From an uncultured Lachnospiraceae bacterium (lineage in GTDB: Bacteria; Bacillota; Clostridia; Lachnospirales; Lachnospiraceae), in contig CALWOX010000005.1 of NCBI GenBank assembly GCA_944383265.1, positions 143,863 to 190,685 on the forward strand: DNA of 46,823 nucleotides, read 5' to 3'. This document shows positions 29,219 to 46,700 of this stretch, one piece after another. The notes beneath the pieces were generated by a model that searched no databases, had not been told where the DNA came from, and worked only from the letters and a program-made list of their open reading frames with translations. The stretch's first letter is position 1. Every line of letters begins with the position of its first letter. The position numbers were made by a program, and so were the translations under genes.

Positions 29219-31024
29219 ATGCAAAGATTACTGGCGTATCTCGGAAAATATAAGCTTTACTCGGTGCTGGCCCCGCTTTTTAAGTGTCTTGAGGCATGCT
29301 TTGAGCTGTTCGTGCCGCTGGTTGTAGCGGACATGATCGACATAGGGATAAGAGAAGGCAGCATAAGCTACATACTCGGAAGAGGCGGGCTCCTTATAGC
29401 CCTCGGGCTCATAGGTCTTGCCTGCTCCATCACAGCACAGTGGTTTGCCGCAAGGGTGGCGGTAAAGACAGGAACAGCCATAAGAAACGATCTTTTTTCA
29501 CATATTTTGGGAATGTCCTACTCGGAGCTTGACACTATAGGAAGCTCAACGCTTCTCACAAGGCTCACTTCTGATATAAATCAGGTTCAAAACGGTGTAA
29601 ACATGTTTTTGAGGCTCTTTATGCGCTCGCCGTTCATAGTCTTCGGAGCCATGATAATGGCTTTTTCTGTTGATATAAAAGGCGGAATGATATTTGCTGT
29701 GGCGGTCCCTCTTCTTATGGTGGTGGTTTTCTGTATACTGCTTTTGAGCATGCCACTTTATGAGAAGGTACAAAAGCAGCTTGACAGCCTGATGCTTACC
29801 ACAAGGGAGAACCTCCTTGGTGTGAGAGTCATAAGAGCCTTCAACAGGCAGGAGAGCGAAAAGGCCGACTTCAAGGAGGAAAATACTGTCCTTGTAAAGC
29901 TGCAGATATTTGTGGGAAGGATATCGGCCCTTCTCAATCCTCTGACAGTAGTCATTATCAATATAGCAATAGTTGCACTTCTCTATACAGGAGCTCTTGA
30001 GGTAAATGCGGGAGACCTTACTCAGGGAAAGCTTGTGGCTCTCGTAAACTACATGAGCCAGATACTGGTGGAGCTAATAAAGCTTGCAAACCTCATAATA
30101 CTTATATCAAAGGCCATCGCTTGCATGAGGCGTGTGGACGCGGTAATGAGCACGGAGAGCGAGGCGGATATATTAAAAGTAATATCAGATGGAAACGCAG
30201 ATTCGGCACATACAGGCTCTAATGCGGCTTCGGAAAACGGAGCTCCGGAAAACCCGGATACTTTCTCTTTGCCTGTCCTGGAATTTAAGGACGTATCCTT
30301 CGCTTATAAGGGGGCAAAAGCCGAAAGCCTTAAGGACATAAGCTTTTCCGTAAAGCGCGGTGAGACTGTAGGAATAATAGGGGCCACAGGAGCGGGAAAG
30401 ACAACACTTATAAACCTTATTCCACGTTTCTTTGACTCGACGGAGGGAAGCATAAATATATTCGGAAAGGATATAAAAGCTCATGAGCTCATGGAGCTCA
30501 GAAAAAGGATAGGTATAGTTCCTCAGAAATCTGTGCTCTTTTCGGGAAGCCTCAGAGACAATATGAAATGGGGCAGGAAGGACGCCACGGACGAGGAGAT
30601 ATACGAGGCTATAGACACAGCCCAGGCAAGAGAGATAGTGGATTCCAAGAAGGAGGGACTTGATCTTAAGATAGAGCAGGGCGGTTCAAACCTCTCGGGA
30701 GGCCAGAAGCAGCGCTTTGCCATAGCAAGGGCCCTTGTGAGAAAGCCCGAGATACTTATAATGGATGACTCTGCCTCGGCTCTCGACTTTGCAACAGATG
30801 CGGCCTTAAGGCGCGCCATTAAAAAGAACACCTCAGAGATGACAGTATTTATAATCTCTCAGAGAGTAGGTACCGTGAGAGATGCGGACAGGATACTTGT
30901 GCTGGAGGAGGGAAGGAGCGTGGGCTTCGGAACCCACAGAGAGCTTATAAAAAGCTGTAACGCCTACAGAGAGATATGCCTGAGCCAGATGACAGCAGAG
31001 GAGGTGGCACGAGATGAAGCCTGA
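29219..31024 (+). CDS. Heterodimeric ABC exporter, subunit with degenerate catalytic site
   Basis: This is a 601-residue half-transporter with six membrane helices (to about residue 300) and a C-terminal ATPase. Walker A is GATGAGKTT (from G388), the signature LSGGQ is at 492-496, Walker B is ILIMD516, but the following catalytic Glu is Asp (D517), and the switch histidine is Gln (Q548). Such asymmetry marks one subunit of heterodimeric exporters such as TM287/288 and BmrCD. A 50-residue Ser/Asn/Glu-rich linker separates the two halves. The last 11 bp overlap the next ABC gene. The natural cargo is unknown; drugs, lipids or peptides are all possible. The ribosome-binding site is weak: an AAGGAAAGG lies 17 nt upstream. 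Confidence 0.93.
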   Translation: MQRLLAYLGKYKLYSVLAPLFKCLEACFELFVPLVVADMIDIGIREGSISYILGRGGLLIALGLIGLACSITAQWFAARVAVKTGTAIRNDLFSHILGMSYSELDTIGSSTLLTRLTSDINQVQNGVNMFLRLFMRSPFIVFGAMIMAFSVDIKGGMIFAVAVPLLMVVVFCILLLSMPLYEKVQKQLDSLMLTTRENLLGVRVIRAFNRQESEKADFKEENTVLVKLQIFVGRISALLNPLTVVIINIAIVALLYTGALEVNAGDLTQGKLVALVNYMSQILVELIKLANLIILISKAIACMRRVDAVMSTESEADILKVISDGNADSAHTGSNAASENGAPENPDTFSLPVLEFKDVSFAYKGAKAESLKDISFSVKRGETVGIIGATGAGKTTLINLIPRFFDSTEGSINIFGKDIKAHELMELRKRIGIVPQKSVLFSGSLRDNMKWGRKDATDEEIYEAIDTAQAREIVDSKKEGLDLKIEQGGSNLSGGQKQRFAIARALVRKPEILIMDDSASALDFATDAALRRAIKKNTSEMTVFIISQRVGTVRDADRILVLEEGRSVGFGTHRELIKSCNAYREICLSQMTAEEVARDEA

Positions 31025-32807
31025 TAACAAGCTTAAAAAGACTCTCACAGGTATAAAAAGTATAGCCGAGCAGAGAGACACTATAAAACGTATACTTGTT
31101 TTAATAGGAAAATACAGGATACTCGTATTCGTATCGCTGATACTTGCGGCCCTGACTACAGCCCTTACGCTTTATATCCCCATACTTACGGGAAACGCTG
31201 TGGACTGCGTTATAGGTGAAGGAAATGTTGATTTTAATGAGCTTATGTCAGTCCTCATAAAGATAGCGGAAGCCGCTTTGCTGTCCGGAGTTTTCCAGTG
31301 GCTTATGAACCACATAAACAACAAGATAACCTACCATGTGGTCTCGGACGTCAGAGTAAAGGCCTTCAATCACCTGCAGGAACTCCCTGTGAGATACTTT
31401 GACACTCATAAATCAGGAGATACTGTCAGCAGGATAATAGCTGACATCGACCAGTTCTCAGACGGAGTACTTATGGGATTTACCCAGTTTTTTACGGGAG
31501 TGATGACAATAGTCGGTACCCTCGGCTTTATGCTCCTTATAAATCCTGTAATAGCTGCGGTAGTAGTTGTCCTTACGCCCCTCTCCTTCGTGGTGGCCGG
31601 CTTTATAGCAAAGCGCACCTACACCATGTTTTTGAAGCAGTCGGAGTCGAGGGGAGAACTGACGGCGCTTACTGATGAGCTCATAAACAATATAAAGACT
31701 GTAAAGGCCTTCGAGCAGGAGGAGAATTCAAAGAGAAGATTTGCCGAAATAAACGAAAGGCTCAGCGAATACTCACAGCAGGCCACCTTCTACTCATCCA
31801 TAACGAACCCCGCCACGAGATTTGTAAACTCCATGGTATATGCGGCGGTGGGTATAACGGGAGCCATAGCGGCTATTTACGGGTTTATCTCCGTAGGAAG
31901 GCTGACCTCATTTTTGAGCTATGCAAATCAGTATACAAAGCCTTTTAACGAGATAAGCGGAGTAGTCACAGAGCTTCAAAACGCCATAGCCTGTGCAAAG
32001 CGTGTATTTGACCTCATGGATGAGGAGCCCATACCGGCCGAGAAGGAGGACGTTAAAAAGCTTGAGAATGCTGAGGGAAGAGTGGATATAGAGCATATGT
32101 TCTTCTCCTACGATTCGAAAAAGCCTCTGATAGAGGACATGAATCTTTCCGTAAACAAGGGCGAGAGAGTGGCTATAGTAGGTCCGACAGGCTGCGGAAA
32201 ATCCACTCTGATAAACCTTCTCATGCGCTTCTATGATCCTTTAAGAGGAGAGATAATGATAGACGGAACAGACAGCAGAGATATAAGCCGAGGCTCTTTG
32301 AGAGACAGCTTCGGAATGGTGCTTCAGGAGACATGGCTCAAATCGGGAACCATAAAGGAAAACATAGCCTACGGAAAGCCCGACGCCACTGATGAGGAGA
32401 TCGTGAGGGCAGCGAAGGAGGCCTTTGCCGACAGCTTTATAAGGAGGATGCCTGAGGGCTATGATACTGTCATCGGAGAGGACGGCGGAAGCCTTTCTCA
32501 GGGACAAAAGCAGCTTTTATGTATTGCAAGGCTTATGCTGAAGCTCCCTCCCGTATTGATCCTTGACGAGGCCACCTCATCCATAGACACAAGGACAGAA
32601 GTCAAGGTGCAGAGCGCCTTTGCAAAGCTCATGGAGGGAAGGACCTCATTTGTTGTGGCTCACAGACTTTCCACCATAAAGGAGTCAGACGTAATACTCG
32701 TTATGAGGAACGGAAGCATAGTGGAGCAGGGAAAACATGAGGAGCTTCTCAGGAAAAAGGGCTTCTATCATGAACTCTACATGAGCCAATTTGCGGGCTC
32801 CCCTTGA
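31014..32807 (+). CDS. Heterodimeric ABC exporter, catalytically competent subunit
   Basis: This 597-residue partner has the six-helix membrane domain and an intact ATPase: Walker A GPTGCGKST (from G390), Walker B ending D518 followed by catalytic E519, and the switch histidine H550 (VVAHRLST). Its signature is LSQGQ instead of LSGGQ (from L494), so the site formed with the partner's Walker A, D517 and Q548 is the degenerate one, while the second site is standard. It overlaps the upstream gene by 11 bp, fixing a one-to-one product ratio. The family is broad (MdlB-like), so the substrate is unknown. Confidence 0.94.
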   Translation: MKPDNKLKKTLTGIKSIAEQRDTIKRILVLIGKYRILVFVSLILAALTTALTLYIPILTGNAVDCVIGEGNVDFNELMSVLIKIAEAALLSGVFQWLMNHINNKITYHVVSDVRVKAFNHLQELPVRYFDTHKSGDTVSRIIADIDQFSDGVLMGFTQFFTGVMTIVGTLGFMLLINPVIAAVVVVLTPLSFVVAGFIAKRTYTMFLKQSESRGELTALTDELINNIKTVKAFEQEENSKRRFAEINERLSEYSQQATFYSSITNPATRFVNSMVYAAVGITGAIAAIYGFISVGRLTSFLSYANQYTKPFNEISGVVTELQNAIACAKRVFDLMDEEPIPAEKEDVKKLENAEGRVDIEHMFFSYDSKKPLIEDMNLSVNKGERVAIVGPTGCGKSTLINLLMRFYDPLRGEIMIDGTDSRDISRGSLRDSFGMVLQETWLKSGTIKENIAYGKPDATDEEIVRAAKEAFADSFIRRMPEGYDTVIGEDGGSLSQGQKQLLCIARLMLKLPPVLILDEATSSIDTRTEVKVQSAFAKLMEGRTSFVVAHRLSTIKESDVILVMRNGSIVEQGKHEELLRKKGFYHELYMSQFAGSP

Positions 32808-32862
32808 AATAGAGCTTTAAATTTATTATAGTTCAGATAACAGATAAAACAGGAAGGTGCGG

Positions 32863-33516
32863 ATGGAGATAAAAGAATATATAAGGACACATAAATACTG
32901 TCTTTTAATGCTTTATTTTCCTGTATATCTTGTGGCGTTCTTTACCATAGACAAGATACCTGCGAGATATATAATAGAATGCTCTCTTGACAGTTTTATA
33001 GGCTTTAATCAGTACATGGTAATACCTTACTTCATATGGTATCCCTGGTTTGTGGGATGGCTTATTTTCTTCCTCATAAGGGACAAGGACGACTTCATAA
33101 GGCTCGCTGTGGTCATGTTTTCAGGCATGACCATATGCCTTATAATATACGTACTTTGGCCGAACGGAGTGGACTTGAGAGAGGAGATAACAGGAACAGA
33201 CATATGCAGCAGGATAGTTGAGCTTATAAGAGCCGCCGACACCCCCTATGCCGTATGTCCGTCCATACATATCTCAACGATAGCCGCGATACAGCTTGCG
33301 ATAAATGATACGAAGCTTCCGGAAATAAAGCCTCTCGTAAAGCTTTTGTGCGGAGCAGTGACACTTCTCATAGCCTACTCCACCATGGCAATAAAGCAGC
33401 ATTCCATAGTGGATGTGTTCTGGGGGGCAGTGCTCAGTATAGTCCTTTACTATATTTACATCATATGTGAAAAAATATTTAAAAGAATGCTCAAGGAAAA
33501 AGAAGAACGTATCTGA
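32863..33516 (+). CDS. PAP2-superfamily phosphatase-like membrane protein
   Basis: This is a 217-residue membrane protein with about six hydrophobic segments. The PAP2 signature appears in the CPSIH form common to the PAP2_3/inositolphosphotransferase branch ([13 protein letters not shown]), followed by the third motif [16 protein letters not shown], in which histidine and aspartate form the catalytic site. The K-x6-RP motif 1 is not obvious. It probably dephosphorylates or transfers phospholipid head groups such as lipid phosphates or undecaprenyl pyrophosphate, at the membrane. ATG 32863 follows AGGAAGG; a GTG two codons upstream is possible. Confidence 0.85.
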
Positions 33517-33558
33517 AAAATCAGAACATAAACGGTATAAATGGAGAAAAAAACGTAT

Positions 33559-36408
33559 ATGAGCAAACAATTTATTAAAATAAGAGGTGCTTCAGAGCAC
33601 AACCTTAAAAATATAGATCTTGACATACCGAGAGACGAGCTCGTAGTCCTTACAGGCCTTTCAGGCTCGGGAAAATCTTCACTGGCATTTGACACTATAT
33701 ATGCCGAGGGGCAGAGGAGATACATGGAGTCTCTGTCCTCCTATGCGAGACAGTTTTTGGGACAGATGGAAAAGCCCAAGGTGGAGAGCATAGAGGGACT
33801 TTCTCCGGCCATATCAATAGACCAGAAGTCCACAAACCATAACCCCAGATCCACAGTAGGTACAGTGACGGAGATATACGACTATCTGAGACTGCTTTAC
33901 GCGAGGATAGGAATACCTCATTGCCCGAAGTGCGGCAGGGAGATAAAGAAGCAGACCGTCGATGAGATGGTGGACATAATAATGAAGCTCCCCGAGAGGA
34001 CGAGGGTGCAGCTTTTGGCTCCTGTGGTCAGAGGAAGAAAGGGAGAGCATGCAAAGCTCATCGAAAAGACAAGGCGCTCGGGCTATGTGCGTATACGCAT
34101 AGACGGAAACATGTACGACCTTTCAGAGGACATAAAGCTTGATAAAAATATAAAGCACAACATAGAAATAGTTGTGGACAGGATAATAATAAAGCCCGGA
34201 ATAGAAAAAAGACTTACGGATTCAATAGAGACAGTGTTGCAGCTTGCAGGAGGACTTATGACTGTGGATGTGGCTGACGGAAAGCCTCTTACCTTCTCCC
34301 AGAATTTCGCCTGCCCCGACTGCGGCATAAGCGTGGAGGAGATAGAGCCCAGGAGCTTTTCCTTCAACAATCCCTTCGGAGCCTGTCCCGAGTGCTACGG
34401 ACTGGGATACAAGCAGGAGTTTAACGTGGACCTTATGATACCTGATCAGAGCTTAAGCCTCAATCAGGGAGCCATATCCGTTATGGGATGGCAGTCCAGC
34501 GGACAGAAGGGCTCATATACCCACGCAATGCTTGAGGCCCTGTCAAAGGCCTATGATTTCAGCCTTGATACGCCCTATGAAGAGCTTCCCGAGGACATAA
34601 AGCATATCATCCTTTACGGAACAGGCGGGAGAAAGGTAAAGGTCCACTATGAGAGCAAATTCGGAAGAGGAAATATCCATGAAGTAGCCTTCGAGGGACT
34701 TTTGGAAAATACCAACCGCAGATACAAGGAGAGCTATTCCACAGAGATGAAGGCCTCCTATGAGGAGTACATGAGCAAGATAACCTGTCCTCTCTGTAAA
34801 GGACAGAGACTTAAAGCCTCATCTCTTTCCGTTACGGTAGGCGAAAAGAACATATTCGAGATGACGGACTGCTCCATAGACGAGTTCAGAAGCAATCTTG
34901 ACGCCCTTGACTTAAGCAATATGCAGCATCAGATCGGAGACCAGATAATAAAGGAGATAAGGGCGAGGGTCACCTTCCTCATAGATGTGGGACTCAATTA
35001 TCTCACCCTTTCAAGGGCTACAGCCACCCTTTCGGGAGGAGAGGCCCAGAGGATAAGGCTGGCCACACAGATAGGCTCGGGCCTTGTGGGAGTTGCCTAT
35101 ATCCTTGATGAGCCCTCCATAGGACTCCACCAGAGAGATAACGACAGGCTCCTTGCAACCTTAAAGCACTTAAGGGATCTGGGAAACTCTGTTATCGTAG
35201 TGGAGCACGACGAGGATACCATGAGAGCTGCCGACTGGGTGGTGGATATCGGACCGGGCGCCGGAGAGCACGGCGGAAGAGTCGTCGCACAGGGTACAGC
35301 CGAGGAGATTATGAAATGCCCCGAATCCCTGACAGGACAGTATCTTTCCGGTAAAATGAAGATAGAGGTCCCCGCAGTAAGGAGAGAGCCGAAGGATTGG
35401 ATAAAAGTAGTAGGCGCAAGGGAAAATAACCTCAAAAACATAGATGTGGATATCCCTCTTGGAGTATTTACCTGTGTTACGGGAGTGTCGGGCTCCGGAA
35501 AATCATCCCTTGTAAACGAGATACTGTATAAGACTCTTGCAAGGAGGCTTAACCGCGCAAAGCTCATTCCCGGAAAGTGCACCGACATAGAGGGAACGGA
35601 AAAGCTTGACAAGGTCATATGCATAGACCAGTCTCCTATAGGAAGGACGCCGAGATCAAATCCCGCCACATACACAGGGGTATTCGACCTTATAAGAGAC
35701 CTATTTGCGGCAACGCCCGATGCAAAGGAGAGGGGCTACAGCAAGGGAAGATTCTCCTTTAATGTAAAGGGCGGACGATGCGAGGCCTGCTCGGGAGATG
35801 GAATCATAAAGATAGAGATGCATTTCCTTCCGGACGTATATGTTCCCTGTGAGGTCTGCGGAGGAAAACGCTACAACAGAGAGACCCTTGAGGTAAAGTA
35901 TAAGGGAAGATCCATATATGACGTTCTTAACATGACTGTTGAGGAGGCGTTGGAATTCTTCAAAAATGTTCCGAGCATAGAGAGAAAGATAAGGACTCTT
36001 TATGATGTAGGACTTTCATACATAAAGCTCGGGCAGCCCTCCACAGAGCTTTCAGGAGGAGAGGCTCAGAGGATAAAGCTTGCAACTGAGCTCTCAAAGA
36101 GGAGCACCGGAAAGACCATATATATCCTTGACGAGCCCACCACAGGACTTCATTTTGCGGACGTCCACAAGCTGATAGACATACTTCACAGGCTTTCCGA
36201 GGGAGGAAATACTATAGTTGTCATAGAGCATAATCTTGACGTAATAAAGACAGCGGACTACATTATAGATATAGGCCCCGAGGGAGGTGCGGGAGGCGGA
36301 ACGGTAATAGCCCGCGGAACTCCGGAGGAGGTGGCGGCAAATCCCGCATCATATACAGGAAAATACTTGAAGCCTTACCTCAAAAGATGCGGCGCAGACG
36401 TTGACTGA
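33559..36408 (+). CDS. uvrA: Excinuclease ABC subunit A
   Basis: UvrA finds bulky lesions for nucleotide excision repair, acting as a dimer with UvrB. The 949-residue protein has two ABC ATPase modules: the first Walker A at GLSGSGKSS (G33), the second at GVSGSGKSS, each with an LSGGEAQRI signature and the Walker B segments [11 protein letters not shown] and [11 protein letters not shown]. Zinc-binding CPKCGRE, CPDC/CPEC and the C-terminal [17 protein letters not shown] cysteines are present. ATG 33559 ([18 protein letters not shown]) was chosen because GGAGAAA lies 11 nt upstream and the family starts here; 33541 lacks a site. uvrB is not in the window. The TGA stop overlaps the -35 of the pyr promoter. 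Confidence 0.97.
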
Positions 36409-36429
36409 TAGGTAACACCGTGCTATAAT
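36401..36429 (+). promoter_or_regulatory. pyr operon promoter (consensus -35, extended -10)
   Basis: TTGACT (36401-36406), exact 17-bp spacer, TATAAT (36424-36429) preceded by TGC. The -35 overlaps the last codon and stop of uvrA. The predicted start at 36436 gives a transcript beginning GGTTTTTTG, and the leader before the pyrC ATG is only about 21 nt. Confidence 0.8.
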
Positions 36430-36456
36430 ATCGCAGGTTTTTTGAAAGGAGAGGTT

Positions 36457-37737
36457 ATGAGGACACTTTTAAAGGGTGCTGAGGTTTATACTGACGGCGG
36501 TTTTGTGAGGCGTGATATCTCCATTTGTGACGGAAAGATAAGCTTTGATATAACGGGTGCCTTTGACGTTTCTGAAAATATAGAAGGCTTTGTTGTTATT
36601 CCCGGTTTCGCAGATGTACATGTGCATCTGCGAGAGCCGGGTTTTTCTTATAAGGAAACTATAAGGACAGGAAGTATGGCTGCGGCAAGAGGAGGCTACA
36701 GCGCGGTTTGCGCTATGCCCAATCTGAAGCCTGTGCCGTCAACCCGGGAGAGCCTTTCACAGGAGATTGATATAATAGAGAGGGACGCTGTGGTGAGGGT
36801 ATATCCCTACGGCGCCATCACCATGGATCAGTCGGGAAGAGGAGAGCTCTCCGACATGGAAGAGATGGCTGATAATGTCATAGCCTTCAGTGACGACGGA
36901 AAGGGAGTGCAGACCGCGGAGCTCATGGAGGAGGCTATGAAAAGGGCCGCAAAGCTCGGAAAGCTCATAGTCGCGCACTGCGAGGACGAGAGCGAGCTCA
37001 AAAAGGGCGGATGTATACATGACGGACGCTTCGCGAGGGAGCACGGATACATAGGTATAAATTCCGCCTCGGAGTGGAAGCAGGTAAAAAGGGACATAGA
37101 GCTTGCGGAAAGGACAGGAGCTTCATACCATGTATGCCATGTATCCACAAAGGAATCCGTGGAGCTCATAAGAGAGGCAAAGAAGAGAGGCGTTAAGGTC
37201 ACCTGCGAGACAGGTCCTCATTACCTTATATATACGGACGAGGACTTAAAGGAGGACGGCTCCTGGAAGATGAATCCTCCCATAAGAGAGGCCGCGGACA
37301 GGGACGCGCTTCTTCGGGGAATAAAGGACGGGACAGTGGACTGCATCATAACAGACCACGCGCCTCACTCGAAGGAGGAAAAATCAAAGGGACTTGCAGG
37401 CTCGGCCTTCGGCATAGTCGGACTTGAGACAGCCTTCCCCGTTGTATACTCAAGGCTTGTAAAGACAGGGGAGATAAGCCTCGAAAGGATGGTTGAGCTC
37501 ATGAGCATAAATCCCAGAAGGATATTCGGCATCCCCGGGGGAAGCATAGCCGATGGAGAGCCGGCGGATATCTGTGTGCTTGACCTTAACAAGGAGTATG
37601 ATATCGACTCCTCGACCTTCTTCTCCATGGGAAAGAGCACGCTCTTTGACGGACAGAGAGTATGGGGCGAGGTGGTCATGAATTTTGTAAAGGGCGAGAA
37701 GGTCTTTGACAGAGAACGTGACCTGCCTGAGAAATGA
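36457..37737 (+). CDS. pyrC: Dihydroorotase
   Basis: PyrC closes carbamoyl-aspartate to dihydroorotate, step three of pyrimidine synthesis, in the cytosol. The 426-residue type I enzyme has the zinc motif D53-V-H55-V-H57-L-R with GFADVHVHLREPG, the conserved IVAHCEDES and YHVCHVSTKES histidines, TDHAPHSKEEK near the metal-binding aspartate, and the final GIPGGSIADGEPADICVLD. The ATG at 36457 follows AAGGAGAGG. An upstream TTG in frame (36442) lies inside the leader and is unlikely. It is first in the pyr operon, ahead of pyrKDFEBI. Confidence 0.96.
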   Translation: MRTLLKGAEVYTDGGFVRRDISICDGKISFDITGAFDVSENIEGFVVIPGFADVHVHLREPGFSYKETIRTGSMAAARGGYSAVCAMPNLKPVPSTRESLSQEIDIIERDAVVRVYPYGAITMDQSGRGELSDMEEMADNVIAFSDDGKGVQTAELMEEAMKRAAKLGKLIVAHCEDESELKKGGCIHDGRFAREHGYIGINSASEWKQVKRDIELAERTGASYHVCHVSTKESVELIREAKKRGVKVTCETGPHYLIYTDEDLKEDGSWKMNPPIREAADRDALLRGIKDGTVDCIITDHAPHSKEEKSKGLAGSAFGIVGLETAFPVVYSRLVKTGEISLERMVELMSINPRRIFGIPGGSIADGEPADICVLDLNKEYDIDSSTFFSMGKSTLFDGQRVWGEVVMNFVKGEKVFDRERDLPEK

Positions 37738-37779
37738 TTATCATTCAACCGGAAGATTCAGACCGGATTTTTAAAAGAT

Positions 37780-37825
37780 TTGAAACAGTTAAAATATCGA
37801 AATTGAAACACTTAAAATATCGAAA
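37780..37825 (+). repeat. Two-copy 23-bp tandem repeat between pyrC and pyrK
   Basis: Units 37780-37802 and 37803-37825 differ at one position (G versus C). Each unit runs TTGAAACAG/CTTAAAATATCGAAA. They sit in the 107-bp gap and end 7 nt before the pyrK ribosome-binding site. Confidence 0.8.
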
Positions 37826-37844
37826 ATGTTGAAAGGTGATGACA

Positions 37845-38609
37845 ATGCGTGATACAGTTTTTAAAATAGAAGAAAACAAAAGGATCGCGCGGGATGTGTA
37901 TGAGATGCTCCTTAAAGGAGACGCCTCCGACATAAAGGCCCCGGGACAGTTCATAAACATTAAGCTTGACGGTTTTTACCTGAGAAGGCCCATATCCGTA
38001 TGCGATTGGAAAAATGATGAGATAAGGATAATATATAAGGTCGTTGGAGAGGGCACCAAGTACATGTCGGAGCTCTCAAGGGGGGATGAACTCCTTGTGC
38101 TCACAGCTCTCGGAAACGGATATTCCACAGAGACTCTTCTTAATATAATTAAAAACGAGCCCGCTACCCGCGTTGTACTTGCGGGAGGAGGAGTGGGAGT
38201 TCCGCCTCTCTACGGACTTGCAAAGAGACTCTCGGAGCTTGGAGTAAAGCCTGATGTGGTCTTGGGCTTTAACTCTGCGGAGGATGTGTTTTATAAGGAA
38301 GAGTTTGAGGCGCTCGGGCTCTCTGTAAAGATAAGCACTATGGACGGAAGCATGGGAGTAAAGGGAGTCGTAACCGATGTGATGAAGGATGAGAAGGGCG
38401 AGCCTCTCTATGACTATGTGTTCACCTGCGGCCCTGAGCCCATGTTAAAGGCTGTATATAATGCTGTGGGAGACGGACAGTTCAGCTTTGAGGCAAGGAT
38501 GGCCTGCGGATTCGGAGCATGCATGGGCTGCAGCTGCAAGACGAAGTACGGAAACAAGCGCATCTGCAAGGACGGCCCCGTTTTATATAGGGAGGAAATA
38601 ATATGGTAG
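37845..38609 (+). CDS. pyrK: Dihydroorotate dehydrogenase B, electron transfer subunit
   Basis: PyrK (254 residues) passes electrons from PyrD to NAD+ through FAD and a 2Fe-2S cluster. The N-terminal half is a ferredoxin-reductase-like FAD domain (YLRRPISVCDW, GEGTKYMSEL), then an NAD domain with LAGGGVGVPPLYGLA. The cluster cysteines are in the C-terminal CGFGACMGCSCKTKYGNKRIC (C221, C226, C229, C241). ATG 37845 follows AAAGGTG; in-frame GTG 37836 and ATG 37839 are possible but overlap that site. The stop overlaps the pyrD start by 7 bp. Together they form the NAD-dependent type 1B dehydrogenase of Firmicutes. Confidence 0.95.
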   Translation: MRDTVFKIEENKRIARDVYEMLLKGDASDIKAPGQFINIKLDGFYLRRPISVCDWKNDEIRIIYKVVGEGTKYMSELSRGDELLVLTALGNGYSTETLLNIIKNEPATRVVLAGGGVGVPPLYGLAKRLSELGVKPDVVLGFNSAEDVFYKEEFEALGLSVKISTMDGSMGVKGVVTDVMKDEKGEPLYDYVFTCGPEPMLKAVYNAVGDGQFSFEARMACGFGACMGCSCKTKYGNKRICKDGPVLYREEIIW

Positions 38610-39520
38610 TACCTGATATAAGCACAGAATTAAGTGGAATAAGGCTTGACAATCCCGTGATACCCGCAAGCGGAACCTTCGGATTCGGAAAGGAATTTGC
38701 CGAGCTCTACGATATAAATATACTGGGCTCCATCAGCGTAAAGGGAACCACAAGAGAGCCACGTTTCGGAAACCCTCAGCCGAGAATAGCCGAGTGCCCC
38801 ATGGGACTTATAAATTCCGTGGGACTCCAGAATCCCGGAATCAAGGAGGTTGTGGAAAAGGAGCTTCCGGAGCTCTGTGAGATATACAAAAAGCCTGTCA
38901 TAGCAAACATCAGCGGATTTTCTGTGGACGAATATGTGGAATGCGCCGAGGCTGTGGATAAGGTTGAAAATGTCGGAATAATAGAGGTAAACGTATCCTG
39001 CCCCAACGTCCATGCGGGCGGAATGGCCTTCGGAACCTCAGCTGACAACATAGCAAAGGTCACAAAGGCGGTAAAGGCTGTGGCAAAAAAGCCTGTTTAT
39101 ATAAAGCTCAGCCCCAATGTGACAGATATTACAGAGATGGCAAAGGCTGCAGAGAGCGAGGGAGCTGACGGCCTCAGCCTCATAAACACCCTCATGGGTA
39201 TGAGGATAGATATAATGAGGAGAAGGCCCGTCATAGCAAACAAGATGGGAGGCTTCTCAGGCCCCGCCATACTTCCTGTAGCAGTAAGGATGGTATATCA
39301 GGTCTCAAAGGCTGTAAAGATACCTGTAATAGGAATGGGCGGCGTGAGCTCCGCAAGAGACGTCATCGAGATGATGATGGCGGGAGCCTCGGCAGTACAG
39401 GTGGGAGCCGCAAACCTCACAGACCCTTGGGCATGCAAAAAGATAATAGAAGAGCTTCCCAAGGAGTGTGAGAGGCTTCATATTGAAAAGCTTTCGGATA
39501 TAATAGGATGTATAGAATAA
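38603..39520 (+). CDS. pyrD: Dihydroorotate dehydrogenase B, catalytic subunit
   Basis: PyrD oxidises dihydroorotate to orotate with FMN. The 305-residue barrel has the class 1 catalytic cysteine C133 in [12 protein letters not shown], substrate lysine in [26 protein letters not shown], and the phosphate-binding [25 protein letters not shown]. The start overlaps pyrK, consistent with assembly of a PyrD-PyrK complex. pyrF follows after 22 bp. Confidence 0.96.
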
Positions 39521-39542
39521 AAGGAGAGGAGAGGTATCGAAG

Positions 39543-40241
39543 ATGGGAAAGGATGTAATCATCGCTCTGGATTTTAAGAATGCTGAGGAGACCTTCAGCT
39601 TTCTTGACAAGTTTACGGGAAGGAAGCCCTATGTGAAGATAGGCATGGAGCTTTTCTATGCTGAGGGGCCTCAGATCGTGAGGGAGATAAAGGCGAGGGG
39701 ACACAAGATATTCCTCGACCTAAAGCTTCATGATATCCCCAATACTGTAAAGGGAGGAATGAGAAGCCTGAGAGATCTGGGAGTCGATATGACAAACCTC
39801 CATGCGGCAGGAACTATAGACATGATGAAGGCGGCTCTTGAGGGACTCACAAGAGAGGATGGCACAAGGCCTCTTCTCATAGCCGTGACTCAGCTCACCT
39901 CCACATCACAGGAGCGCATGGAAAAGGAGATACTAATTGAGAAGCCTCTTGACGAGGTAGTAATAAAGTACGCACAGAACGCAAAGGAGGCGGGACTTGA
40001 CGGAGTCGTATGCTCACCTCTTGAGGCGGGAAAGATACATGAGGCCTGCGGAGAGGGATTTTTGACAGTGACTCCGGGAGTAAGATTTGCAGACGGAGAC
40101 ATAGGAGACCAGGTGAGAGTTACCACTCCCGAGAGGGCAAGAGAGATAGGCTCTGACTACATAGTAGTGGGAAGACCCATCACAAAGGCTGAGGACCCGG
40201 TGGCCGCATATGAGAGATGCATGCGCGAATTCGTAGGATAA
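39543..40241 (+). CDS. pyrF: Orotidine 5'-phosphate decarboxylase
   Basis: PyrF converts OMP to UMP. The 232-residue type I enzyme has the catalytic D59-x-K61-x-x-D64 in [11 protein letters not shown], the start [12 protein letters not shown], and the phosphate-binding loop [14 protein letters not shown] at the C-terminus. AAGGAGAGG precedes the gene. A 111-bp AT-rich gap separates it from pyrE, which carries a likely internal promoter. Confidence 0.97.
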
Positions 40242-40281
40242 TAAGTTTTTAACCATAAAAACAGAACATGAATATATAACT

Positions 40282-40312
40282 TTATATTATATTGAAAAGA
40301 ATTAATATAATA
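40282..40312 (+). promoter_or_regulatory. Probable internal promoter and inverted repeat before pyrE
   Basis: TATAAT at 40306-40311 has TTATAT (40282-40287) 18 bp upstream. A perfect inverted repeat, TATTATATT/AATATAATA (40285-40293 and 40304-40312), covers the spacer and the -10. The gap is far more AT-rich than its surroundings. Confidence 0.5.
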
Positions 40313-40352
40313 ATCAATATAAGAATTAAAGACATAAGGCAAAGGAGGATAT

Positions 40353-41018
40353 ATGAAAGAGGATATTGCAAAAGGCTTACTTTCAATAAAAGCCGTATTT
40401 TTAAGACCCGAGGAGCCCTTTACCTGGGCAAGCGGAATAAAGAGCCCCATATACTGTGACAACAGACTGATACTGACAGCTCCGGAGGTAAGGACTATGG
40501 TTGAGAGCTCAATAGCCGAGACCGTAAAGAAGTATTACCCCGACTGTGAGGCCCTTATGGGAACATCGACAGCGGGAATAGCTCACGCTGCTATCGCGGC
40601 TCACATGCTCGGCATGCCTATGGGCTATGTGAGAAGCTCCGCAAAGGACCACGGAAGAACAAATCAGATAGAGGGAAAGCTTGAGAAGGGTGAGAAGGTA
40701 GTAGTTGTCGAGGATCTTATCTCGACAGGAGGATCCGTGCTTGAAGTCGTAAATGTCCTCAGAGAGGCGGGAGCGGAGGTCCTCGGAATCGTCAGCATCT
40801 TTACCTACGGAATGAAGAAGGGGCTTGACCGACTGAGAGAGGCAAAGGTAAACAACATAAGCCTCTGCGACCTTGACACCCTTGTGGATATAGCGGCACA
40901 GGAGAATTACATTAAGAAGGAAGACAAGATAAAGCTTTTACAGTTCAGGGATAACCCCTCGGACGAATCATGGATGAAGGGAGAGGTAAAATGCAGGGAA
41001 ATAAGATCAGGAATTTGA
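40353..41018 (+). CDS. pyrE: Orotate phosphoribosyltransferase
   Basis: PyrE joins orotate to PRPP to form OMP. The 221-residue enzyme starts [38 protein letters not shown], carries the [11 protein letters not shown] flexible loop, and the PRPP motif [13 protein letters not shown] (from V116). AAAGGAGG precedes the ATG. The 3' end overlaps pyrB by 28 bp, so its last residues (KCREIRSGI) may be shaped by the overlap. Confidence 0.96.
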
Positions 41019-41923
41019 TAAGCATCACAGACTTGTCTGTAGATGAGATAAACGGACTTATCGAGGTGGCAAATGATATAGAGAAAAATCCTGTAAAGTA
41101 TCAGGATCTCTGCGCTCACAAGCAGCTTGCCACACTGTTTTTCGAGCCCTCCACAAGGACAAGGCTGAGCTTTGAGTCGGCTATGCTCTCCCTTGGCGGA
41201 CAGGTATTAGGCTTTTCATCGGCAAACTCAAGCTCCGCCGCAAAGGGCGAGAGCGTGTCAGATACTGTAAGGACTGTTGGAAACTATGCCGACATTATCG
41301 CTATGCGCCATCCCAAGGAGGGAGCGCCGGTAATAGCCGCACAGAAGACAGTGGTTCCCATAATAAATGCAGGTGACGGAGGACATTTCCACCCCACCCA
41401 GACTCTTACGGACCTCCTTACCATAAGCCGCAAGAAGGGAAGACTTTCAAACATGACCATAGGCCTTTGCGGAGACCTTAAGTTCGGACGTACAGTCCAC
41501 TCACTCATAGAGGCGACACTCAGATACGAGAACATAAAGTACGTGCTCATATCCCCCGATGAGCTGAAGCTTCCCGAATACATGACAGACATGATAAAGG
41601 CGGCGGGAGCAGACTACGAGGAGATAGCAAACCTCGAGGAGGCAATGCCCAAGCTCGACATACTTTACATGACAAGAGTACAGAAGGAGAGATTCTTCAA
41701 CGAGGAGGATTATGTAAGACTCAAGGATACCTACATTCTTACTCCCGAAAAGCTCGTAAACGCAAAAACGGATCTGACCATCATGCATCCCCTTCCCAGA
41801 GTAAACGAGATCTCGGTGCAGGTGGACGAGGACGATAGAGCCTGCTACTTCTACCAGACCCTCTGCGGAAAGCACATAAGGATGGCTCTTATACTTTTCC
41901 TTTTGGGAATAAAGGCGGAATAA
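40991..41923 (+). CDS. pyrB: Aspartate carbamoyltransferase, catalytic subunit
   Basis: PyrB joins carbamoyl phosphate to aspartate, the first committed pyrimidine step. With ATG 40991 it has 310 residues, the normal length. Carbamoyl-phosphate contacts are S54-T-R56-T57 in [29 protein letters not shown] and [10 protein letters not shown] also match. GAAGGGAGAGG lies upstream, inside pyrE; the in-frame ATG 40970 is possible but lies before the site. It is followed after 12 bp by pyrI, its regulatory partner. Confidence 0.96.
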
Positions 41924-41935
41924 GGAGGAAACAGC

Positions 41936-42358
41936 ATGAATATAGATGGTGTTAATACAGGTATAGTCCTTGACCATATCAAGGCCGGAAAGAGCATGGC
42001 TATATATGAGTACCTCGGACTGGACAAGCTCTCAAGCTGCGTGGCGATCATTCAGAATGTAAAGAGCGGAAAGTACGGAAAGAAGGACATAATAAAGATA
42101 GATGAGATAATAGACCTTGACCTTGACGTGCTCGGGTACTTCGACAGCAACATTACCGTAAACTACATTAAGGACGGAAAGCTCGTCGAGAAAAAGCATG
42201 TTGAGCTTCCCGAGAAGCTGGTGGATGTCATTAAGTGCAAAAACCCCAGATGCATTACAAGTACAGAGCAGGAGATACCTCATGTATTTGAGCTTGTGGA
42301 CAAGAGCAAAAAGATGTATCGCTGCATTTATTGCGACGCACAGGTAAAACTCAAATAG
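41936..42358 (+). CDS. pyrI: Aspartate carbamoyltransferase, regulatory subunit
   Basis: PyrI binds nucleotide effectors (ATP, CTP, UTP) and zinc, and regulates PyrB allosterically. The 140-residue protein has the allosteric domain (NTGIVLDHIKAGKSMAIYEYL) and a zinc domain with four cysteines in KCKNPRCIT and MYRCIYCDA. Its presence implies that this organism has an allosterically regulated enzyme, as in Enterobacteria and some Clostridia. A HicB-like gene follows after 38 bp. Confidence 0.96.
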   Translation: MNIDGVNTGIVLDHIKAGKSMAIYEYLGLDKLSSCVAIIQNVKSGKYGKKDIIKIDEIIDLDLDVLGYFDSNITVNYIKDGKLVEKKHVELPEKLVDVIKCKNPRCITSTEQEIPHVFELVDKSKKMYRCIYCDAQVKLK

Positions 42359-42396
42359 ATATTGCATAAAGCATACTGCGTAAATCGGAGGACAAA

Positions 42397-42669
42397 ATGA
42401 AATTTGTATATCCCGCAGTCATAAGAGAGGAGGAAGGCTGCTTTAAGGTCAGCTTTCCCGATCTCAAGGACTGCATTGCCGAGGGAGCTACTCTTGAGTC
42501 GGCTATAGAAAATGCCAAGGAGGCAGAGAAAAACTGGATAACAGTGGAGCTTGAGGACGAGGGGATACTTCCCGAGATCACCGCGGTGAGCGATATAGTG
42601 ACAGCGGAAAATGAGACAGTAAGGACCATATCTGCCACTGTAAAGTTTACCGAAGGGTGGGAGGAGTAA
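42397..42669 (+). CDS. HicB-like antitoxin-fold protein without HicA
   Basis: This 90-residue protein fits the HicB N-terminal fold: KFVYPAVIREEEGCFKVSFPDLKDCIAEGATLESAIENAKEAEKNWI matches the pattern Y-x-A-x-I...V-x-FPDL...A-x-EGxTLxEAxxNA. HicB is normally the antitoxin of the mRNase HicA, but no HicA-like ORF (about 60 residues, with a conserved histidine) is found on either side. It has a CGGAGGAC ribosome site and appears to sit at the end of the pyr transcript. It may be a solitary HicB-like protein of unknown role, and the usual C-terminal DNA-binding domain is absent. Confidence 0.8.
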   Translation: MKFVYPAVIREEEGCFKVSFPDLKDCIAEGATLESAIENAKEAEKNWITVELEDEGILPEITAVSDIVTAENETVRTISATVKFTEGWEE

Positions 42670-42690
42670 AAAGGGCTACACAAATCCTAA

Positions 42691-43053
42691 TTATACTACC
42701 ATTTCCCCTGCAAAAACCGCGAGGATTCCAAGTACAGTGCTGAGTATGACATATACTAATGCAATACCCGCATGTCCGCCTTTTATCAGATCGAGGCTCT
42801 CCAAAGCAAAGGTCGAAAAGGTGGTAAAGCCTCCGCATATTCCAACCTTTAAGAACAAAACAAACCGTGGGCTTATGGCGTGGCTTTTAGTAGAGGCTGC
42901 TGCTATAAGCCCTATTATAAATGCACCGATTATATTTATGACAAGCGTCTTTACAGGAAATACCGTATCTTCATTCAAGGGAATCAGCCCTATCAAATAT
43001 CTGAATACAGATCCTATAAAACCTCCAAGACCGACAAAAAAGCAATTTATCAT
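42691..43053 (-). CDS. crcB: Fluoride channel FluC/CrcB
   Basis: FluC is a dual-topology dimeric channel that expels fluoride ions through the inner membrane. The 120-residue protein has four membrane segments and the signature GGFTTFSTF, preceded by LFLKVGICG; the start FFVGLGGFIGSVFRYLIG and NIIGAFIIG are also canonical. TGGAGG precedes the ATG. Many bacteria encode two adjacent copies; only one is present. It is convergent with the pyr operon and HicB gene with only 21 bp between stops and no visible terminator. I do not see a fluoride riboswitch in its leader. Confidence 0.95.
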   Translation of the reverse strand: MINCFFVGLGGFIGSVFRYLIGLIPLNEDTVFPVKTLVINIIGAFIIGLIAAASTKSHAISPRFVLFLKVGICGGFTTFSTFALESLDLIKGGHAGIALVYVILSTVLGILAVFAGEMVV

Positions 43054-43071
43054 GTCAGACCTCCATTACTC

Positions 43072-43148
43072 CAAAACTGTATTTTGGCTTCGTTAATATT
43101 ACATTTAAGGCTCCGATCTGTAAACCGGAACCATGGAAAATTATACCA
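43072..43148 (-). promoter_or_regulatory. crcB promoter and hairpin leader
   Basis: On the minus strand TGGTATAAT (43148-43140) is a perfect extended -10 with a start near 43133. The transcript would begin with a stem of GGTTCCG and CGGAGCC (loop of 10 nt), and later a CCAAAA/TTTTGG hairpin just before the ribosome-binding site. The core does not match the fluoride riboswitch consensus. Confidence 0.5.
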
Positions 43149-43256
43149 TAATTATCAGAAAAGAAGTATTGATATCAGCTCTCTTTTCTTTTGCTTAAAA
43201 ACGAAGAAAAACACGGAAAATAAAGGATTTTCAGAGACAAGATAAAAAGAAAAAGA

Positions 43257-43284
43257 ACTTCCGATAAATTCGTTTATCGGAAGT
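43257..43284 (-). terminator. Leftward terminator with no known gene behind it
   Basis: A perfect 12-bp stem (ACTTCCGATAAA) closed by a 4-nt TTCG loop. Read leftward it is followed by TTCTTTTTCTTTTT, the tract expected of a rho-independent terminator; read rightward it is followed by AAGGTCC, so it points left. It lies between crcB and the hairpin-rich gap. Confidence 0.7.
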
Positions 43285-43774
43285 AAGGTCCTTAAACCTG
43301 ATAAACGAGGCCCCACATAAGCCTTAAAGCCTTCGCTTTATCGCCTGATGTAATGCCCCGTGATGTAAAAAGCTGTCATTATATCCGAAAACGGCCTTCG
43401 ATCTTCTTTAAATACCCCCTTATCGGAGAATCCTCATATGAGAGGGGGAACATGTATCTTACGGAATCGTCCGACACATGTAACGAACAAAAAGAAAACC
43501 TTACCCGTATCGTTTTTACTAATATTACCATATTTCGTACACAAATTCCATACCGCGAAGGTAAATTTAACAATAAAAAACGAAATTATACGAGGGGTGG
43601 TCAATAATTTTATCATTACGAATCGACTTCTTTCTTCCACTTATAAACGAATTTATCAGCAGTAAAAACTCAGCCCGAAAGGAGGGGGCAAAGCCCCTTA
43701 AATAAGGCTTTTACATAGATAAAAACGACAGGCCGAAAAGGAAATGCAGGGCCTGCGGAAAGGGGAGAGAAGCG
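43285..43774. other. Gene-poor region before the surface protein
   Basis: This 490-bp stretch has no ORF I trust. It contains a TAAAGC/GCTTTA hairpin (about 43325-43340), the CTCATATGAG palindrome (about 43432-43441), GGGGC-AAA-GCCCC (near 43686-43698) and CAGGCC/GGCCTG (about 43730-43755), plus an inverse match of the terminator loop region (ATAAACGAATTTATC near 43643). Short minus-strand frames end just before the leftward terminator (for example a 27-codon open tail ending KALRLMWGLVYQV), which could be remnants of a decayed gene or chance. The last 100 bp act as the leader of the surface protein gene. Confidence 0.4.
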
Positions 43775-46700
43775 ATGAAAGTGAAGAGAAAAGTCGCGGC
43801 GTTATTGGCTCTTGCCATGGTGCTGACAAGCCAGCCCTTCGGAGTATTGGCTGACGGTCTCGACAACATGAAAGAAGACTATGCCGTGACAGAGGAAGAT
43901 GTGACTACCCCGAGCGAAGCCGAAGAAGAGAACACTGAAGAAGAAAAGGAAGAGCTTGAGGTCACAGTCAACATCGATCCCGAGGATGGCGCTAATGTAA
44001 GAGCACCGAAGAAGGTCGATACAGGAGATACACTTGAATTCAGCGTGAAGGTCAAGGACGACTACAAGATCTCTCGGGTTGAAGTCTTCGGAGAGGATAT
44101 CGAAGGAGAGTACGATGAAGAGGATGACAGATATTATTATCAGGTTGAGGGTGTAGACTTTGCACCCGAGATAAATGTCAGCCTTGAGGAAGTCGATGAG
44201 GTCGAATATCCCGAGTTCAATGATGAGATCGAAGCGGACGGACTCCTGTTTGAGGTAAGCGCCGATGAAGGAGTTTTGCCTGAGGGAACCGAGGTCAATA
44301 TCATAAGCCTTGAAGATGTGGAGGATATAGATGCCGACGCTGTAAAGACCGAGGTATTAAAGGAAGCGGGAGCGGAAGACGAGGAAAGCCTTCAGTATTC
44401 AGCATACCGTATAGAGCTCAGAGATGCCGATGGAAATATTCTTACAGAGGATGACATCAACGGTTCGGTTGAGGTAAAGGTAAGTGTACCCGAGTCCGAG
44501 GACGAGGAGACAGAGCCCACAGAGCTTTCGGTATACAAAGTTGAAGTAGAGACAGCAGAGTCCAAGGAAGAAGCGACGGATGAAGCCACAGAGTCCGAGG
44601 ATGAGGCTGCAGCCAATACCGAGGAGAATACAACAGCAAGAATGGCAAATGCTGTATCACTCAATGCCGTAGCTCCGGATGACGAAGATAATATTGCGGA
44701 AATCAAGGCAAAAAAGACAGGCGAGAGCTTTGATGTAAAAGACGGAGTTTATGATGTGTCTGTGTTGGCTCGAAATAATGAAATATCAGTACTTGCAAAA
44801 TCAAGGTACCTTGAAGCCAAGATAGGTGAAACTTTCTCTATCGAAGGTAGTTCGAGTATTCGGAATCACTTATGGAAATTGGATACTGAAGGACTTTCAG
44901 GAGTAAAAATAGTAAAAGGACAAGATAGACAAGAAGTAAGTATTAAAATTCCTAATAATCCTAATCTTGTAGGCAAAACTTTTAAAGTTACACATACGTA
45001 TTATAGGCTTGGTTTTTTGGAGTATGTACAAGAAACCGAAACCTATACAGTATTAATAACCGGTGAGAAAACTTTAGTTTATTTTTATATTAAGAAAGCT
45101 GAATACGCAACAAAACCTGATGGCTCATCAGGTGGAGATGCGGGAAGCGATCCGGAGCACTTTGAATATTGGGGAACCGGAACAATAGAACTCGGACCTG
45201 CAGATTCATATGTTGAAAGTGGAGAAAATAATAAATATGTAACTTGGGACAGATTCGGAAACCCGACATTCAAAAAATTACCTTTATCTGATGTGAGATA
45301 TGACGCACCGGAAAGTCCTAATCATGCTACTGCAGAATCTGATTCGCCTTATGACTCTGAAGGATATCCTATTTTGTACTATCCTGCTTCAGGATCTAAC
45401 CGTACAGCTTATTATCATGAGAACAGCACGGATCCTAATGCATTAAACTCACAAAACAAATATTCAGTTAAATGGTCGGTATATACTATAGCTGCAGGTG
45501 CTACAGATGAGAATGACGAGACAATAACAGATGGTAATACTTGGCATATAGATGGTGATGTAACTCTCTATAATGCAAATGAAATTACTGCAAATGCTTA
45601 TTTGAAAAATTCTGACGGATCTGAGAAACATATAATAACTTGGATGATACCTCGAGATATTGATGAGGCGATGAAAAGTTGGAATACAATTAAGCAAAAT
45701 ATAGAAGAAGGCATTACAGATACAGTTGAATGGTATTTGGATGAAGATTACACAATCTCTTATTCATACAATACTCTTAAAGCAATACTGGATGATGAAG
45801 AAACCAAAGAAGTTAATTTCTATGGGAAGATTGTGGAAAAGCCAATAACGGTGAAATACAGCGTCGAGTACACTTACGGAGATAACGGAGAGAACAATCT
45901 GACAGCCGAAGACGGAATGTATACCGGAGGAACGGGAACATTTGAAGAGCCTGTTAATGTGGCGAAATACATCGATGCGGAAAGCGGAGACAATATCCCT
46001 TCGAGCATTGATATAGGCGGAGATAACTATGTGCTAGATCCGGAGAACGACTACACTATCTCAAGTCTTTCATTGGAAGATAAGCAGAATGTAATCAAGG
46101 TGAACTACCTTATTGACAAGATGGGAGGAACCGAGGAAAAACCCGGAGACGGAATCCCCGACAAGTACCAGAGAACAGTGAAGTTTGCGGTTGTGAACGG
46201 ATACTGGAATGAAGGAACAGAGGACGGTGCAATAAAGACAAAGACAGCGACATTGGTTGACGGGGAGGGTCATTACGACCTTGATGCGACCGTTGAGGTT
46301 GCATTGCCCGGAGTCGGAGAGAAGCCGGCTGACGGATTTGCGAAGAGCGGAAGCTGGGACAACGAAATCGGTGCCGAGGCGACAAGCGTGAATGTAGACA
46401 AAGACACCGAGAACGGAAAGACATACACCTACACTTACGATGAAGCCGGTAAGGTCACAATCACATACAAAGTTTCACCTGAAGGAAGCGGAACACTTAG
46501 CAGTTACCAAGATTTGGTTGCACCCGTAACGGGAACGGTACAGGGATCGACAGCGACAGCTAAAGACGGATACGCATTCATAAATTGGACGAGAGAATCC
46601 GACGGAGCGGTTGTGGGTTGGGATGATGAATTCAAGCCCGAGAAGGTCAACAATCTGAATGTTGCAGAGACTTACATCGCAAACTTCGGAGAAGACAAGA

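Follow-up and report, generated by a model that had tools for sequence, protein, structure and literature searches.

The seven genes for UMP synthesis in the window (the whole stretch of 46,823 nucleotides that was analysed) are headed by a promoter that is a plausible candidate for codBA-like, UTP-sensitive slippage at initiation, within a clade of three species. That the pyr operon is indeed governed by a UTP-sensitive slippage initiation, with a predicted start site and a putative slippage and UTP dependence, is regarded here as evenly balanced. According to a 2026 review (PMC13328217), mechanisms based on slippage or on start-site selection are commoner in Gram-negatives; for Gram-positives, G slippage has already been described at pyrG (PMC4448216 and PMC6431027). 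If the reading is true, a codBA-type U-slippage promoter on a whole de novo operon, in a lineage in which no PyrR was detected, would widen the Gram-positive picture, and it would show how cheaply such a control can evolve, namely from a few T's suitably spaced from the -10.

The pyr operon and its promoter

The operon has the order pyrC-K-D-F-E-B-I, with all seven UMP-synthesis genes on the + strand behind the T6 promoter:

36457..37737, + strand: pyrC, dihydroorotase (TIGR00857, 391 bits, cut-off 279)
37836..38609, + strand: pyrK, dihydroorotate dehydrogenase electron-transfer subunit (NF000799, E 3.1e-66, below the model's cut-off)
38603..39520, + strand: pyrD, dihydroorotate dehydrogenase (NF005574, 433 bits, cut-off 269)
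39543..40241, + strand: pyrF, OMP decarboxylase (NF001273, 299.5 bits, cut-off 193)
40353..41018, + strand: pyrE, orotate phosphoribosyltransferase (TIGR00336, 143 bits, cut-off 106.8)
40970..41923, + strand: pyrB, aspartate carbamoyltransferase catalytic subunit (TIGR00670, 333 bits, cut-off 237)
41936..42358, + strand: pyrI, aspartate carbamoyltransferase regulatory subunit (NF002063, 194 bits, cut-off 171)

The sole + strand terminator-like site that is listed in the operon lies within pyrF (39582-39599) and is probably due to chance. The region between uvrA and pyrC is laid out as follows:

36401-36406, + strand: -35 hexamer TTGACT, overlapping the last codons and the stop of uvrA
36406-36408, + strand: uvrA stop, overlapped by the -35 of the pyrC promoter
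36421-36429, + strand: extended -10, TG C TATAAT (TG 36421-36422; TATAAT 36424-36429)
36422..36434, + strand: imperfect palindrome GCtATAaTATcGC, centred on the -10 (candidate operator, recognized by its symmetry)
36430-36435, + strand: discriminator ATCGCA, between the -10 and the predicted start
36436-36437, + strand: GG, predicted alternative start bases G7 and G8 (placed by spacing only)
36438-36443, + strand: T6 run, predicted slippage tract, bases 9-14 after the -10 (sequence reading)
36444, + strand: G directly after the T6 run
36445-36451, + strand: ribosome-binding site AAAGGAG (sequence reading)
36457-36459, + strand: pyrC start codon ATG

The spacer between the -35 and the -10 is 17 bp long, and the T6 run (36438-36443) is followed by GAAAGGAG and then by the ATG at 36457. 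In a promoter scan of positions 30000-46823, the promoter scored 11 of 12 consensus bases, which is reached by only two sites in this range, and it is the only one of the two with the TG. The promoter had been described in the first-pass annotation as TTGACT, 17 bp, TGC-TATAAT and T6, with pyrC 21 nt past the predicted start, and with this the sequence agrees. Both the predicted start at G36436 and the 21-nt leader derive from the spacing alone, and given this start, the T run falls within about the first ten transcribed bases of a sigma-70-type promoter. The leader of 21 nt contains no ORF. In the interval from uvrA to pyrC, the scan lists no site on the + strand that resembles a terminator, and read-through could thus bypass the control, which counts against the slippage reading.

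In the proposed mechanism, the initially transcribed GGTTTTTTG would be the slippage tract at the head of the UMP-synthesis operon, with RNA polymerase starting at G36436 or G36437. At high UTP, the short GG(U)n or G(U)n transcript would slip back on the A tract and add U repeatedly, and the slipped transcript would be released rather than extended, whereas at low UTP the polymerase would pass the tract and make the full mRNA. Starts at G8 (GpU) would be favoured at high UTP and slip, and starts at G7 (GpG) would escape. No regulator protein or leader structure would be required, and the allosteric control of aspartate carbamoyltransferase by PyrI could act alongside.

Relation to known promoters

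The E. coli promoters were compared in the sequences of strain MG1655, in which codBA (codB) reads TAGAAT-GCGGCG-GATTTTTTGGG with the initial stretch GATTTTTTG, upp reads TATAAT-CCGTC-GATTTTTTTTG, and pyrL-pyrBI reads TATAAT-GCCGGAC-AATTTGCC; the pyrC promoter of the window reads TATAAT-ATCGCA-GGTTTTTTG. The likeness to codBA that had been noted beforehand, including the wording of its initial stretch as GATTTTTTG, thus holds: in both promoters, all six bases from 9 to 14 after the -10 are T, with two purines before them at bases 7-8 and a G after them, and both precede pyrimidine genes. Unlike codBA, which has GA (G7, A8), the window has GG at 7-8, it has a near-consensus extended -10, and the entire de novo operon would be under its control, in a Firmicute-type genome and with a function that is predicted from the sequence. 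For codBA, Qi and Turnbough (1995) reportedly described a UTP-dependent reiterative transcription with start-site switching, and slippage at codBA and upp is said to be coupled to such switching.

The other enterobacterial cases are less similar. With upp and carAB P1 the promoter has in common that a T run stands among the first transcribed bases before a pyrimidine gene, but the length of the run (8 and 3 there), the start context and the spacing differ (upp has GATTTTTTTTG, car P1 has GUUUGC). With E. coli pyrBI the promoter shares that pyrB and pyrI are controlled and that the slippage tract, here a predicted one, adjoins the start, but pyrBI has only three T (AATTTG) plus the pyrL leader peptide; the five T of AATTTTTG, which had been quoted for pyrBI in the first-pass annotation, are wrong for MG1655.

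Two further types of control differ from what is found in the window. Start-site switching of the E. coli pyrC type requires a 5' hairpin that blocks the ribosome site, and no such hairpin is predicted in the leader of the window's pyrC, whose best fold up to codon 8 is weak (-5.1 kcal/mol). The G slippage of the B. subtilis pyrG type depends on a GGG start plus a leader terminator; the predicted start in the window is GGT, and the scan found no terminator-like site in the leader.

How strong an effect could be expected can be judged from carAB P1 of E. coli (GUUUGC; T3, G start), where PMC6245113 describes a UTP-dependent stuttering that is abolished by interrupting the T run. There, stuttering is lower with a G start than with an A start and lower with 7-bp than with 8-bp spacing, and the promoter is controlled only at low UTP (0.9-50 uM). 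From the predicted G start of the pyrC promoter a weaker effect is thus expected, and from its longer T run a stronger one. In Streptococcus agalactiae (PMC4448216), non-templated starts are mostly A repeats (67%), but U reiteration occurs at thyA, and therefore the type of polymerase does not exclude U slippage in Gram-positives. Like the pyrC promoter, thyA belongs to a Gram-positive and has a short leader in which the tract adjoins the ribosome site, and it differs, according to the same paper, by its T start, its U-extended mRNAs, its gene product thymidylate synthase and a proposed effect on translation.

Conservation in the genus

The genus was represented by 25 genomes, including the window's own. 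In the nearest species, G017 and G021, whose PyrC is 82 and 84% identical to that of the window, the arrangement TTGACT-17-TGC-TATAAT-ATCGCAGG-TTTTT-G-AAAGGAG is kept, with T5 instead of the window's T6. The -35, the extended -10 and the discriminator ATCGCA are identical in all three species. In G021 (contig copy L074, 'uncultured Lachnospiraceae bacterium E04__bin383'), uvrA and pyrC are separated by another gene, and a gene of the same kind is found just upstream of pyrC in G017, which indicates that the promoter goes with pyrC and not with uvrA.

From the extended -10 to the ATG, the window matches either species at 37 of 38 positions plus a one-T indel, and G017 and G021 match each other at 38 of 38, despite an identity of only 53.8, 50.0 and 54.5% at the four-fold sites of pyrC in the three species pairs. 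This contrast between 37/38 and 50-54.5% suggests that the block is under selection, with the T run sharing in it without being singled out. If 50% identity is taken as the neutral level, the chance probability of the 14 unchanged bases from the -10 to the G after the run is 6e-5 per pair, and that of the five T alone is about 0.03 per pair. Of the spacer, only 5/14 and 4/14 positions in G017 and G021 are identical to the window's, whereas these two species agree with each other at 11/14 spacer positions and at 76/99 positions of the sequence preceding the -35, and for their pair the four-fold sites may thus overstate the neutral divergence. A point against the slippage reading is that the block may be conserved for the sake of strong initiation and of ribosome binding.

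The block could also be conserved for the sake of its palindrome, if a repressor bound to it over the -10 and slippage played no role. In favour of such an operator, 10 of the 13 positions are symmetrical, the palindrome is unchanged in G017 and G021, and only 5 of 276 TGnTATAAT sites in the compared loci reach 10/13 when the six copies of the pyr block are excluded. However, TATAATAT is largely palindromic on its own, the motif stops short of the conserved GG and T run, it is not over-represented in the window (2 occurrences with at most 1 mismatch against 1.8 expected), and no copy with up to 2 mismatches was found just upstream of the genome's own carA, pyrG and upp, which altogether makes an operator quite improbable.

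Outside the clade, the corresponding bases are CAGG-TTTT in G014, CAGG-TTT in G008, CAGG-TT in G019 and G006, CAGGC-TT in G009 and TAGA-TTT in G005, and G002 and G018 have a T-run score of 1. A run of at least five T is thus confined to the three-species clade among the congeners with a scored promoter, the rest having at most four, and the check proposed beforehand, whether the T tract is conserved at the pyrC promoters of relatives, comes out positive for G017 and G021 and negative for the other scored congeners. The range from T1 to T6 at the pyrC promoters of the genus offers a natural series for relating run length to UTP sensitivity.

The sequence CAGG at bases 5-8 after the -10 also occurs in G014, G008, G009, G019 and G006, and this retention in five further congeners with a shorter T run, together with the adjacent G at positions 7 and 8, fits a mechanism in which the choice between the two G starts responds to UTP or GTP by sensing of the initiating nucleotide, with little or no slippage. 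As the window's leader, with its best fold of -5.1 kcal/mol to codon 8, has no strong hairpin that would make the choice matter for translation, such a mechanism is considered very doubtful here. In four congeners, namely G009 (L021), G019 (L022), G008 (L024) and G006 (L026), a strong GC hairpin begins at most about ten bases from the predicted start, with folding energies between -24 and -32 kcal/mol for the sequence up to the start codon +24; it is positioned before the ribosome site and shows compensating changes (CCGGAGG/CCTCCGG versus CCGAAGG/CCTTCGG).

Rarity of the T run behind a good promoter

By itself, a T6 after TATAAT is at control level and not enriched in the own genome, where TATAAT-N5-9-T6 gave 33 rows (17+16) and the reversed pattern 28 (16+12). 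Inspection of 30 of the 33 rows, corresponding to 29 loci with about 25 distinct sites, revealed that the pyrC site alone has a -35 of 5/6, all others reaching at most 4/6. Among 137 promoter-like sites (score of at least 11) in 111 loci of relatives, searched on both strands, at least five T from bases 7-10 onward were found in only four, three of which represent the pyrC promoter in the two sister species (with L017 and L074 coming from one genome), the fourth being unrelated. The rare thing is thus a T run behind a good promoter, not a T run as such.

Two sites were considered as second cases and rejected. Site L045 of the own genome (TATAATATCGATCGTTTTTT) matches the -35 at 4/6 and its ORFs do not exceed 26 aa, and at L161 (1340-1447), before a permease gene, six T lie at bases 9-14 after a -10, but this -10 is weak (TAAACT) and the agreement is probably a coincidence. 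The permease of L161 follows arcC; its best family is the xanthine permease pbuX with 373 bits (cut-off 414), and it scores over the cut-off of the NCS2 superfamily. No promoter with the T6 layout was found near the own carA, pyrG and upp among the sites listed, which again counts against the slippage reading.

For a wider survey of pyrC, the best promoter-like site (score of at least 10) within 330 nt upstream of a PyrC match was taken in 108 loci, which gave 81 sites after exclusion of G017 and G021, not every one of which need be a true pyrC promoter. Not one of these 81 has five or more T, one (G014) has at least four, and 11 have at least three, a share that corresponds to the background (20/137). 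This absence, and the strong hairpins that some congeners have instead, speak against the part of the earlier slippage claim that would reach beyond the clade.

The pattern TGNTATAATN7RT5 was matched family-wide in 213 of 397 genomes, at no fewer than 150 sites. Of the 150 that were listed, 146 were inspected, as 30 loci and 116 further stretches (the pyrC site itself, G000:C7, G389:C63 and G204:C57 being left out), and 145 were readable, as L197, near a contig end, had no site. A -35 of at least 4/6 is present in 44 of the 145, and 30 of these also have an ORF of at least 60 aa with a ribosome site within 260 nt. Among the matches listed, none of the 145 sites precedes a pyrimidine or nucleobase gene as defined by blastp (E 1e-5) with a set of 14 proteins, a comparison that would miss pyrimidine genes outside this set and in which, as a positive control, the same script recovered pyrC in all three clade members. 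The idea that a T-run start is a genome-wide or family-wide signal of pyrimidine genes was therefore dismissed, with the own genome at control level and 0/145 among the matches listed. Judging from these comparisons, the T-run start either was invented locally, in a single clade, or is incidental there. Among the matches listed in the open-licence literature, none reports U slippage at a clostridial pyr operon.

Several of these results would also be expected if the promoter were simply strong and unregulated with a short leader, the T run being a clade-specific filler and the UMP flux being set by the allosteric feedback of PyrI on aspartate carbamoyltransferase. In the genome, T6 follows TATAAT at no more than control level (33 rows versus 28), sites of the T5 type precede other genes across the family, T runs are shorter in congeners that do not belong to the clade, and a pyrI gene is present. 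It does not fit, however, that the three species differ by no more than one extra T over the 14 bases that follow the -10 and end with the G behind the run, while four-fold sites are at about 50%, and to express an entire biosynthetic operon constitutively from a near-consensus promoter would presumably be costly. An unregulated promoter is thus regarded as possible but somewhat unlikely.

PyrR and the scope of the control

In many Firmicutes, the orthologous operon is regulated by PyrR attenuation of the B. subtilis type. Unlike such systems, the window's genome has no PyrR over the tested cut-offs, and neither a binding loop nor a terminator was found in the leader. The protein was searched with one model, NF003549, which reached at best 33.5 bits in the own genome (cut-off 138) and exceeded the cut-off in none of the 25 genus genomes (best 44.9), several of which are incomplete, but did so in 6 of 14 control genomes, B. 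subtilis among them. Hits resembling PyrR (33-45 bits versus 138), which occurred in the own genome and in G008 and G014, were taken as other phosphoribosyltransferases. The own genome is 97.5% complete, and a missed PyrR gene is therefore unlikely but possible. The PyrR RNA RF00515 scored at best 23.6 in the own genome (gathering score 54; 150 of 348 candidates scored), and no Rfam family was found in the window at gathering scores. The first-pass annotation had seen no room for a PyrR attenuator in the leader, and with a predicted leader of about 21 nt, no binding loop or terminator found in it and no Rfam family in the window, this assessment is supported. In the review mentioned above (PMC13328217), PyrR is named as the regulator for Gram-positives.

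A simple PyrR-loop pattern was matched by 4 of the 81 other pyrC-upstream promoter loci; the pyr leaders with such a PyrR-loop-like sequence, for example GATACAGAGAGATCGGC, belong to some uncultured Clostridia (L116, L125, L141 and L143). Given that such leaders exist in some uncultured Clostridia, PyrR control may have been lost in the genus of the window.

The wider statement made beforehand, that pyrimidine synthesis is regulated here by slippage at initiation, is partly supported, as a candidate mechanism within the clade, by the codBA spacing, by the lack of a PyrR over the cut-offs and by the block kept in three species, and has the shorter T runs outside the clade against it. In its most far-reaching form, the slippage reading would have the whole de novo UMP operon controlled only by the first eight transcribed bases, in a lineage related to Lachnospiraceae in which no PyrR was detected, with G8 starts slipping into poly-U at high UTP and G7 starts escaping at low UTP, as a convergence with enterobacterial codBA after the loss of PyrR attenuation. 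Taken as a whole, this scenario is considered unlikely.

Leaders of pyrG and carA

Two other leaders of the own genome have features of their own. In the leader of pyrG (L159, on C3), AAAAAGCG pairs with CGCTTTTT around a GAGGG...CCCTC stem that by eye is terminator-like, and the predicted start is not of the GGG type of B. subtilis pyrG. Upstream of carA (L160, on C1), a weak TATAAT is directly followed by six T, in a layout that differs from that of pyrC, and behind it lies, again by eye, a terminator-like GCCCGA...TCGGGCTTTTTC. This terminator-like leader suggests that carA may be attenuated in response to some signal.
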